Virus record (IMG/VR): IMGVR_UViG_3300049855_000015
Coordinates: 1-42,928 of that record
Length of the DNA stretch: 42,928 nt
Reading direction: 5' to 3' (one strand)
Origin: a virus
Positions within the stretch are counted from its first letter, which is position 1; each line of letters begins with the position of its first letter. A program made the translations under genes and the position numbers. Under the pieces are notes generated by a model, which was not told the DNA's origin, did no database searches, and was given only the letters and a program-made list of their open reading frames with translations. This document shows, piece by piece, positions 7,094-9,473 of this stretch.

Positions 7094-7306
7094 TTAGCCC
7101 AGGTGGGCGATAGTGTTGGCATTTAGAGCCTGCGTCAGAAGAAGTGGGGTCATAAGAAACTGACCATTTGCATCCTTAAGGAGTAGTGGAGCGACCCCTT
7201 GTTCGGTAGCCATGCGATTTACTTCTTGAACCTGCTGATCCGTTGCGATTAGGATCTTGTTTGCCAGGGTCAAAAGTTCACTTCGATTGGGGTGGTATCT
7301 ACTCAT
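7094..7306 (-). CDS. Hypothetical protein (70 aa) downstream of the structured RNA region
   Basis: 70 residues from ATG 7306 behind TAAGGAGAGTCAAC; an upstream in-frame start would run into the structured leader and lacks a ribosome site. The protein is mostly helical (SRYHPNRSELLTLANKILIATDQQVQEVN) and soluble, without known motifs. Its ribosome site lies only about 12 nt from the outer stem of a predicted pseudoknot (7330-7405), so that RNA could control its translation. It is also the first gene after the 920-nt gene-free block. Confidence 0.68.
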   Translation of the reverse strand: MSRYHPNRSELLTLANKILIATDQQVQEVNRMATEQGVAPLLLKDANGQFLMTPLLLTQALNANTIAHLG

Positions 7307-7329
7307 GTTGACTCTCCTTATATAGGGTT

Positions 7330-7405
7330 GAGGGCACAGATTTGCAACTAGCCGCTGTCGTTTAACCCAATACCGGTGCCGTACAGTTGCCACGGTAGGG
7401 CCCTC
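7330..7405 (-). ncRNA. Predicted H-type pseudoknot at the 3' end of the RNA region
   Basis: An outer stem GAGGGC/GCCCTC (7405-7400 with 7335-7330 on the minus strand) encloses GCAACT/AGTTGC (7390-7385 with 7349-7344) and TACCG/CGGTA (7397-7393 with 7375-7371). The two inner helices cross, as in an H-type pseudoknot. The joining strand contains TTAAACGACAGC, the element shared with the site near 16.87 kb. All pairings are exact. Confidence 0.5.
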
Positions 7406-7678
7406 GTTTCGATTCCTAGCAGTATTCAGTTGTATGGCTCGTTTGCTCGCAGCACGTGATTGCCAGACGGATTTGTTGCTGAGGTACTCGCTGAGTAACC
7501 AGACCCTACTAGTTGTTTCGGGTACATCGTCTCTTGGCCGTACCTATGTAGTAGTTATAACTAGTGTCATGTCGCTCGGTGGCGCAGTAGTCTCGATCTA
7601 GACAGCGTAGGCGGAGGTTGGCTAACTGACCTATAGTCCAACAACGCGGCATAGTAGTCCGCTCTCGGCCTTGGTTTT

Positions 7679-7698
7679 CAGGGCATTATAACTTTCCT
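7679..7698 (-). promoter_or_regulatory. Possible -10 element inside the RNA region
   Basis: The minus strand reads GGAAAGTTATAATGCCC. TATAATGCCC resembles the TATAATGACCCC core of the repeated promoter module, but the upstream AACAnGCC part is missing. It may be a diverged promoter for the 3' third of the RNA and the gene at 7306, or part of the RNA itself. Confidence 0.3.
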
Positions 7699-8233
7699 CC
7701 TCTCGTGACTACACCCATCCTAAGGGTGACTTGGTAGTGGGTCTAAGTGGTTATCATCAGCACCTAAGGGCGAATCGCCAGGTCCTCCGGTAACGACATC
7801 TACCCCTAGGCGGTAGTGTCTTCTTAGTTTTAAAGTCTCCGCTAACCCCGAGACTCCCACAAATTTGTGAAGGGCACCGGTTAACCGACGGTCGTTTAAA
7901 ATCAGCGTAGGGTGGCCGCTAATTCCCTTAATGCCCCACCAGTCCAATTTAGACGGTAGGGAGTAACTGCGTTATGGCGCCTATCCTCGTACGACTCGGG
8001 ATAGATCTTCGCGTGGGTCGTATTCACCTTATTACTCACCATAACCGGTTTTTTAACTGCTTGCGCTGCGGGCCGCTAAGCCTGTCGCCGCCTTCGGAGT
8101 ACCTTCTCCGCTCACATGTGGGACGCAGGCTCCGGCCATCTGGACCATTGCTTTCTGTCTTTTACACCCAAGCCGGCTTCCCCTCCGGCTGAGGTCCCAC
8201 AACGCTCTGAGCCTAAGACCTATTTATACTCGC

Positions 8234-8446
8234 TCAGTCGAGTTCGGGCTCTTCTACGACTTCCGGCTCTGGGTCCGGAACGTTGTCGACCGAGAAGGTA
8301 ACCCAGCTACCGTTCTCGTAATTGATGTCAGTCTCCTGCGTCTTCAGAAGAAGAGCGCCTTCGGAGAGGACCTTAACCCAGACGATTTCACTGTGAACGA
8401 TAACGCTGTCCGAGTCCTCATTTTGCTGAACTGAAACATTAAGCAT
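8234..8446 (-). CDS. Small acidic protein (70 aa)
   Basis: 70 residues, MLNVSVQQNEDSDSVIVHSE..., with a beta-rich first part and a strongly acidic tail (PDPEPEVVEEPELD). The ATG follows GTAAGGAGTCATA. It is the last gene before the large structured RNA region, and its stop lies 10 nt before a TATAAAT sequence that could be a weak promoter for that RNA. I do not recognise a family. Confidence 0.68.
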   Translation of the reverse strand: MLNVSVQQNEDSDSVIVHSEIVWVKVLSEGALLLKTQETDINYENGSWVTFSVDNVPDPEPEVVEEPELD

Positions 8447-8505: not shown

Positions 8506-8697
8506 CTAGAGCTGGACGAAGTACGGAGGCAATCCGTCAGCCTCGGAGTTTTCGAGCATGTGCTTGATCTCATCATGAGAGAACATACCATACTCAACGC
8601 GTCCATTACCCATCACTACCTTGCACGCGAATCGCTCGGGTCGAGTCTTCGTTGGGACGTCGTGAGAGCTGGTGTTGATGTTTGTGTCAAACGGCAT
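8506..8697 (-). CDS. Hypothetical protein (63 aa)
   Basis: 63 residues from ATG 8697, behind CGAGGAGGCCCCTA; the longer upstream frame overlaps the previous gene and lacks a ribosome site. The protein (MPFDTNINTSSHDVPTKTRP...) ends with an acidic helix, SHDEIKHMLENSEADGLPPYF. It overlaps the 3' end of the preceding gene by 11 nt. No known motifs. Confidence 0.66.
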   Translation of the reverse strand: MPFDTNINTSSHDVPTKTRPERFACKVVMGNGRVEYGMFSHDEIKHMLENSEADGLPPYFVQL

Positions 8698-8983
8698 TAG
8701 GGGCCTCCTCGGGCTGGAATGACTTCTCGAATGCACTCTGGGTGTAGACCTTGTAGCCACCGTCGGACAAGAGAATCCAGTCCCCAACATAGGCCTTGGT
8801 CTGTCGGTTGGTCTTTGGCTGGCGCACGTTAACCTTCACGTAGCGCTTTGCCCCATCACTCATCGTGGTCTGGGTTCGCACATGCCCCCCACACCAATCT
8901 GCGATCTGCTCCAAGTTCTCTTCTGACACCTGGATTCCTTCAACCGTGAAGGGCTTGCGAACGTACTTAGAGGTCTCGATCAT
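8687..8983 (-). CDS. Conserved actinophage-type protein (98 aa)
   Basis: 98 residues from ATG 8983 behind AGGAGAACAATCAACT; a longer frame from 9046 would overlap the SSB-like gene without a ribosome site. The pattern KYVRKPFTVEGIQVSEENLEQ, then WCGG, then an AYVGDWIL segment and a KVYTQSAFEKSF ending fits a small conserved protein often found in early regions of phages of Gram-positive hosts. Its function is unknown. It overlaps the following gene by 11 nt. Confidence 0.75.
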   Translation of the reverse strand: MIETSKYVRKPFTVEGIQVSEENLEQIADWCGGHVRTQTTMSDGAKRYVKVNVRQPKTNRQTKAYVGDWILLSDGGYKVYTQSAFEKSFQPEEAPNAV

Positions 8984-9005
8984 AGTTGATTGTTCTCCTA
9001 GGTTA

Positions 9006-9473
9006 TTAGTCAGAATGAGGAATGGCGTACTTAAGCTCCAGCGCATCCTCGATGATGGTGATGTAGAGTGACTTCAGGTAAGCCTTCTTGCCCTTCTTAC
9101 CCGAGACCTCCCAGTTATACGGTCGGACCATAAGATCCACATGTGCGACCTCGACAGAGTCAAGGAGCTCGACCTGAGCCTCCCCCAACTCCGTACGCGA
9201 GCCAGACTGCGATCCGATCATGACGATGCGGGGCGGGTAGTTACCAAACCCAACCGAGACCGGAAGATATGGCTGCGGCTCGTCTCCCTCCTCACGCGGA
9301 TTCAACTGCTTGACGTTCCAGCCGTTGGCCACCAATGTGTCAGCCATAGCGGTGTCGAGAAGCACACAGAAGTTACGATCTCCTGCAGCATTGAACTGAC
9401 CTTCGCGGCCTGCGAAATTCAGAAAGAGGATCTTAGCGTCCTCGATAGTGATGTTGTCTTCTCTAGGTGACAT
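9006..9473 (-). CDS. Predicted single-stranded DNA-binding protein
   Basis: 155 residues. The opening TIEDAKILFLNFAGREGQFN with GDRNFCVLLD, then PREEGDEPQPYLPVSV, PPRIVMI and a final KAYLKSLYITIIEDALELKY resemble a phage family usually annotated as ssDNA-binding (OB-fold-like) proteins. Placement right after the replicase gene supports a replication role, coating ssDNA at the fork. The ATG follows GGAGCAGACTA and overlaps the preceding gene by 11 nt. Unlike bacterial SSB, the C-terminal tail is short (YAIPHSD). Assignment is by resemblance only. Confidence 0.6.
   Translation of the reverse strand: MSPREDNITIEDAKILFLNFAGREGQFNAAGDRNFCVLLDTAMADTLVANGWNVKQLNPREEGDEPQPYLPVSVGFGNYPPRIVMIGSQSGSRTELGEAQVELLDSVEVAHVDLMVRPYNWEVSGKKGKKAYLKSLYITIIEDALELKYAIPHSD

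Follow-up and report, generated by a model that had tools for sequence, protein, structure and literature searches.

A pistol ribozyme at the head of a candidate large structured RNA in phages of actinobacteria

The locus and its features

The window analyzed here is the complete stretch of 42,928 nucleotides (nt) of the IMG/VR virus record IMGVR_UViG_3300049855_000015 (positions 1 to 42,928), in which two minus-strand genes (8234-8446 and 7094-7306) bound a gene-free stretch. An initial annotation, based on the letters of this DNA, had claimed that about 920 nt at 7310-8233 carry no plausible gene and most likely encode a large structured RNA. The first claim was borne out, as the open reading frames inside the block have no relatives at homologous loci, for which reason a protein reading was rejected. 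The second is supported by covariation among homologues, with the exception of 7866-7406, which is not backed by them. Comparison with 27 other phage sequences demonstrates that a structured RNA coded on the minus strand is real. These relatives, mostly metagenomic contigs, share an architecture consisting of a pistol ribozyme with an enlarged P3, two hairpins (H1 and H2), a GUUAAA(CAAA)AAACC joint and an enclosing helix with an H-type pseudoknot. We consider it probable that the locus specifies a large processed noncoding RNA of actinobacteria-infecting phages, which is released by the pistol and may act in trans. The gene-free limits given earlier hold, but the element itself starts at 8243 and overlaps the end of the upstream gene. 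The features are listed in the direction of the predicted transcript:

8234..8446, minus strand: upstream gene, 70 amino acids, its last 10 nt overlapping the pistol; not conserved among members
8110..8243, minus strand: pistol ribozyme with enlarged P3 (Rfam RF02679 and P2/P3 covariation over 28 members)
8243-8239/8232-8228, minus strand: pistol P1 (direct reading and Rfam alignment)
8237-8232/8212-8207, minus strand: pistol pseudoknot (direct reading and Rfam alignment)
8220-8217/8113-8110, minus strand: pistol P2 (covariation over 28 members)
8201-8194/8124-8117, minus strand: pistol P3 (covariation over 28 members)
8117..8201, minus strand: three-way-junction module m1, within pistol P3, with P2 8190-8185/8176-8171, joint UGUAAAAGA 8166-8158 and P3 8157-8155/8128-8126 (permutation test; the same structure results when this piece is folded alone by minimum free energy (MFE))
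8114..8115, minus strand: predicted cleavage site between G8115 and U8114 (published pistol rule)
8114 to ~7330, minus strand: putative mature RNA of ~785 nt, 5' end from the predicted pistol cut, 3' end inferred only
8095..8110, minus strand: hairpin H1, CGGAG-AAGGUA-CUCCG, predicted to head the mature RNA (100% paired, with compensatory changes at two of the pairs)
8068..8092, minus strand: second hairpin H2, variable in sequence, beginning 3-4 nt past H1 in most members
8047..8058, minus strand: conserved A-rich joint AGUUAAAAAACC (alignment A2 and covariance model R1)
7971..8045, minus strand: helix A (8045-8037/7979-7971) around an H-type pseudoknot (register test; z of the piece -2.1)
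8022-8017/7995-7990 and 8005-7999/7986-7980, minus strand: pseudoknot stems u and s inside helix A
7867..7939, minus strand: module m2, joint UUUUAAACGA at 7901-7892 (joint and P3-Y-GCCC layout as in the other modules)
7406..7866, minus strand: middle of the putative RNA, with no homologous sequence found in other members and no plausible gene
7330..7405, minus strand: module m3, terminal three-way junction with joint UUAAACGA, P1 7405-7400/7335-7330, P2 7397-7393/7375-7371 and a possible kissing interaction 7390-7385/7349-7344 (its end taken as the putative 3' limit of the RNA)
7319-7312, minus strand: ribosome-binding site of the downstream gene, AAGGAGAG
7094..7306, minus strand: downstream gene, 70 amino acids, starting 23 nt past m3; not conserved among members

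The block had further been described as packed with helices, including at least ten exact inverted repeats, a description that did not hold against dinucleotide shuffles. Exact inverted repeats (gap up to 120) with arms of at least 6 number 20 in the block and 19.0±4.8 in the shuffles, and the corresponding values are 4 versus 4.9 for arms of at least 7 and 1 versus 1.1 for arms of at least 8. For the minus strand of the block the MFE z-score is -0.12, and for the plus strand it is -0.99. As repeats and folding energy are both at chance level, the block is not visibly rich in helices and the case for the RNA is therefore a comparative one. Two adjacent RNAs split by the TATAAT at 7690-7685 had also been considered, but neither a promoter-like site nor a minus-strand terminator was found, and the division into two transcripts was rejected.

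Pistol head, relatives and conserved folds

The pistol ribozyme had been missed by the initial annotation and was recovered by cmscan against Rfam 15 as a match to RF02679 with 49.2 bits (gathering threshold 34.5, E 1.4e-7; Rfam bounds 8193-8243, minus strand). Pistol also scores above the gathering threshold in the scanned members, and membership in the family is further indicated by P1, P2, P3, the pseudoknot and a fixed-length two-base junction of GU type. Covariation of P2 and P3 over 28 members places the 3' strand of P2 next to H1, unlike the 3' end at 8193 given by Rfam. We regard this boundary as an artefact because P3 is enlarged here, whereas for L291 and L376, two members whose P3 is short, the Rfam match itself runs up to H1. 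According to the two-base junction rule for pistol cleavage (PMC4604425) the cut would fall between G8115 and U8114, and the junction dinucleotide among the 28 members is GU in 18, AU in 8 and CU in 1. A cut just after GAGCG (8203), which would keep P3 within the mature RNA, was rejected since the same pistol paper points to the right-shoulder junction. The predicted 3' product begins with U-GAGC-GGAG, and a cut four bases before H1 fits the idea that H1 is a conserved 5'-terminal hairpin. We regard cleavage by the pistol in vivo as very likely.

The element shares with other pistols the P1 helix, the P1-loop pseudoknot, P2, P3, the two-base GU/AU junction and the location in phages. It differs in a P3 of ~85 nt, in the conserved RNA of 260-790 nt directly following it and in the interchangeable inserts that P3 of the relatives holds, namely a three-way junction, a tRNA-like element or a GGGCGCUAAG..CUUACUGUCUG module; the description of these inserts and of the tRNA-like elements is based on visual inspection. 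A second type of P3 insert, GGGCGCTAAG..CTTACTGTCTG..GTCAGRCCGCCC, is conserved across members (L024, L028, L042, L043, L049, L054, L060, L066, L077, L083, L101 and L275) and also occurs outside P3, as in L056, where it lies downstream of it as well.

Pistol patterns run on IMG/VR and GTDB genomes yielded about 140 pistol sites. Most sites in the first set examined lie between genes, have a short hairpin as P3 and are soon followed by a gene, but a subset combines a far larger P3 with a long tail devoid of genes and with a conserved core after P3. The covariance model R1, built from 13 core sequences, found 21 members among 95 sources, including 8 outside the seed at E <= 7e-5, all located just 3' of a pistol, and did not detect the core in the other ~70 viral pistol loci or in 44 pistol loci of bacterial genomes. 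A pattern restricted to the core added 5 further members, and since each of them has a pistol directly upstream, the linkage between pistol and core is not a product of the query. Less productive were the pattern AAGNAGTTAAAAAAC, which was too unspecific for finding members, the pattern AGTTAAAAAACN{8,38}AATAAGGTG, whose only gain was a near-duplicate of L090, and a DNA similarity search, in which the pistol alone matched cultured phages. In two cultured phages of Microbacterium, Count (MH153801) and Camille (MH153800), the RNA is present in diverged form within unannotated sequence. R1 gives a weak hit in Count (12.9 bits, E 3.8) and no match in Camille; both were assigned by eye and by the fit of the fixed-register pairs.

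For the covariation tests all 28 members were aligned in fixed register over 14 pairs (alignment A4), comprising 2 pairs of pistol P2, 7 of pistol P3 and 5 of H1, the last reading CTGTG-AAGGACA-CACAG or CGGAG-AAGGUA-CUCCG in the relatives. In this alignment 95.7% of the cells are paired (64.4±1.7 in shuffles), and 11 of the 14 pairs show changes in both partners. The score for covariation amounts to 0.795, as compared with 0.199±0.023 for shuffled and 0.095-0.174 for slid versions. The second pair of P2 is frequently mismatched; its third and fourth pairs are intact in 26 of 28 members each, a value equaled in 0 of 5000 permutations. In P3, 139 of 147 cells are paired over 21 members (best permutation 118). 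No protein frame is conserved across the homologues. Helix A and H2 were picked as best helices, and for this reason the nulls were mismatched-partner permutations for the former and shuffles for the latter. The outer pair of helix A lies exactly 2 nt past AAAAAAC in 17 of 26 members (at most 7 for any other offset; 0 of 20000 permutations), and H2 beats 95% of the shuffles in over half of 21 members.

One of the two crossing helix pairs noted earlier lies in this region. Its helix 7971-7977/8039-8045 (GUUAUGG/CCAUAAC) stood, as it corresponds to helix A, whose register is kept by 17 of 26 members, but its partner 7961-7966/8032-8037 (GAGUAA/UUACUC) did not turn up in those relatives that were inspected by eye. 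What recurs in its place is a crossing of stem u (8022-8017/7995-7990) with stem s (8005-7999/7986-7980), which in the window gives a u-s-u'-s' pseudoknot of UACGAC/GUCGUA with UCUAUCC/GGAUAGG. The same topology is built from different sequences in L062, L090, L085, L281 and L376, in which the predicted pseudoknot is best supported. Tested as a whole arrangement against shuffles the signal is weaker, with a combined Z of 4.1 over 26 members, several of which are not significant.

A three-way-junction module occurs in three copies in the window and consists of P1, a P2 hairpin, a joint of the (U)UUAAACGA type, a P3 hairpin, a pyrimidine and P1'. Complementarity of P1 within 15 modules exceeds all between-module permutations (0 of 20000), m2 having the weakest P1 of the set. 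Module m3 accommodates the second crossing pair described earlier (7344-7349/7385-7390 with 7371-7375/7393-7397) as its P2 and a possible kiss between L2 and L3; no such kiss was detected in the other modules. Comparable last modules shortly ahead of the next gene are present in L024, L057, L062, L088 and L090, and the 3' end of the RNA is tentatively placed at ~7330, the limit of the last module, 23 nt short of the start codon that follows. Taken together, comparison among the members shows that selection maintains pairing in the ribozyme fold as well as in H1, in helix A and in the junction module that recurs, and we are almost certainly dealing with a real class of structured RNA.

The members belong to one lineage of actinobacteria-infecting phages at large divergence, with 55-64% identity to the primase-polymerase and 52-58% to the helicase of the window. 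The slot that the RNA occupies in the members is the interval from the SSB gene (PF24083) to the helicase gene, whereas the genes touching the RNA mostly have no relative in the member set, and a search with the downstream 70-amino-acid protein found no relatives. Comparison of the members shows the RNA to stay in its slot while the adjoining genes change. At the same slot, a 119-amino-acid protein family, represented in the window at 8687-9046 (minus strand), is found in several copies around the RNA in many members; this family (cluster 0) has no counterpart in Pfam.

Release, possible function and alternative explanations

We propose that the RNA would be transcribed from the minus strand inside a replication-gene operon and that its head pistol would cut the transcript of this operon at G8115|U8114. 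The upstream message would keep a folded 3' end made up of pistol P1 and P3 bearing m1. The downstream product would start with a 5'-hydroxyl U, followed four bases on by H1, and would fold into H1, H2, the A-rich joint, the pseudoknot domain closed by helix A and the junction modules up to ~7330. Comparably to GOLLD and ROOL, the freed RNA could then serve in trans, either as a scaffold or as a binding RNA, and not as leader to the gene that follows; for a role in trans we see an even chance. The arrangement also suggests one role for pistols, the biological purpose of which is unclear, namely to part a structured RNA from an operon message.

Several observations weigh against this explanation. 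The inverted-repeat counts and the bulk folding energy of the block are ordinary, H2 by itself is not significant in the window (shuffle test) and 7866-7406 has no homologous sequence among the other members. The shuffle and permutation tests ignore relatedness, whereas the slid controls do not. The 3' end has no detectable terminator, so that the RNA may remain joined to the downstream message. Finally, R1 found no match in sampled cultured phages of Gordonia, Arthrobacter, Streptomyces and Rhodococcus whose gene order is the same and in which annotated genes occupy the interval. As most of the sampled cultured relatives lack the RNA, it is an optional element, dispensable in some hosts.

The main rival is that the element serves as a protective 5' leader of the downstream operon message, in which the 5'-hydroxyl and the fold block 5'-end-dependent decay and no free RNA is made. 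The next gene indeed begins 23 nt past the last module, has a good ribosome-binding site and is not separated from the module by a terminator, and many other phage pistols are intergenic with a short leader only. However, for stabilization 260-790 nt of RNA with exchangeable modules and a conserved pseudoknot domain would be unnecessary, and the downstream gene varies between phages, which leads us to assume that a leader is possible but rather unlikely. The lack of conservation of the touching genes argues against a leader or regulator of one specific gene. This also concerns a riboswitch-like cis-regulatory sensor of the adjacent gene, with which the position just upstream of a gene and the conserved pseudoknot domain would be in line. 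As its neighboring genes are not conserved, unlike those of most riboswitch classes, and no Rfam riboswitch matches, we consider such a sensor improbable.

Even less credit can be given to a derived tmRNA (transfer-messenger RNA) or tRNA-like ribosome RNA. Folds resembling tRNA, with a T-arm of the GTTCGATTCC type, were recognized by eye in the pistol P3 of L056 and L003 and another upstream of the L392 pistol, together with weak sub-threshold scores for tmRNA families in L392, but most members have no tRNA-like element, and neither ARAGORN nor Rfam finds a tRNA or tmRNA in the window, so that this identity was rejected. These elements are located at ~1690-1610 (minus strand) in L056, 3045-3180 in L003 and ~1500-1610 in L392; the one in L003 is not called by ARAGORN, nor the one in L056 by Rfam. 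Degraded or spacer DNA beside a pistol, with helices formed by chance, agrees with the chance-level repeat count and folding energy and is the least probable alternative, since compensatory changes occur in register across 28 diverged sequences. It is contradicted for 8243-7971 and possible for 7866-7406.

Known RNA classes and further pistol loci

Only few classes of very large ornate RNAs are known from bacteria and phages, and their functions are open. Apart from pistol, Rfam 15 gave nothing in the window and the scanned members (cmscan in gathering and E-value modes), and relaxing the cutoff to E <= 5 for the block added nothing but chance matches (sR42, Rev44). Membership in GOLLD and ROOL was therefore rejected, their models being unmatched in these sequences. 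GOLLD is a large ornate phage RNA of ~800 nt with pseudoknots and, in some members, tRNAs in the variable part (PMC12286853). The RNA described here resembles it in size, ornateness, pseudoknots and phage location but is headed by a pistol, lies among replication genes and is mostly not beside tRNA genes. ROOL, likewise a large ornate RNA of phages and prophages with several pseudoknots and of unknown function, differs in its context, and no 5' ribozyme is described for it in the sources consulted. Theta ribozymes, which are related to the hepatitis delta virus ribozyme and occur in gut phages (PMC10879173), also process operon RNA beside structured RNA, but they have another ribozyme fold and were proposed to process tRNA 3' trailers (PMC10879173).

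We found no prior description of the RNA in the literature searched, which left out most subscription papers and preprints. Whether it represents a large phage RNA class absent from Rfam 15, with a built-in pistol freeing the 5' end, a cassette site in P3 and a modular trans-acting body, appears about evenly balanced. The RNA seems to set its own 5' end by a ribozyme and to be built from exchangeable modules, and as two cultured phages that infect a laboratory host carry it, processing, structure and deletion phenotype are directly testable.

Some further observations were made at other pistol loci. In L004 and L005 (Curtobacterium phages), L067 and L097 a pistol heads a different RNA, possibly of a sister class, in which a GCACCNG..CNGGA..AAAAGCCCCTG motif recurs. 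A short repeat, CCTGGGYATGACGTTAAACTGCCC, likely a small hairpin or pseudoknot, is present near the 3' ends of the blocks in L050 (two copies), L028, L098, L008 and L289. In Gordonia phage GMA2 (L002, 3001-3057) a pistol separates tRNA-Trp from tRNA-Gln within a large array of phage tRNAs; a tmRNA is present upstream. L026 (four pistols), L029 and L069 have pistols in successive intergenic gaps of one contig, which suggests an operon-wide cutting of the message. In Oscillospiraceae and relatives (L112, L113, L115-L118, L122, L132, L135, L141 and others) pistols are followed by a conserved GGGGGTTTAGCA..TTTGCTAATCAGAAGCC..TTGATAC stretch, possibly a mobile element or a separate RNA.
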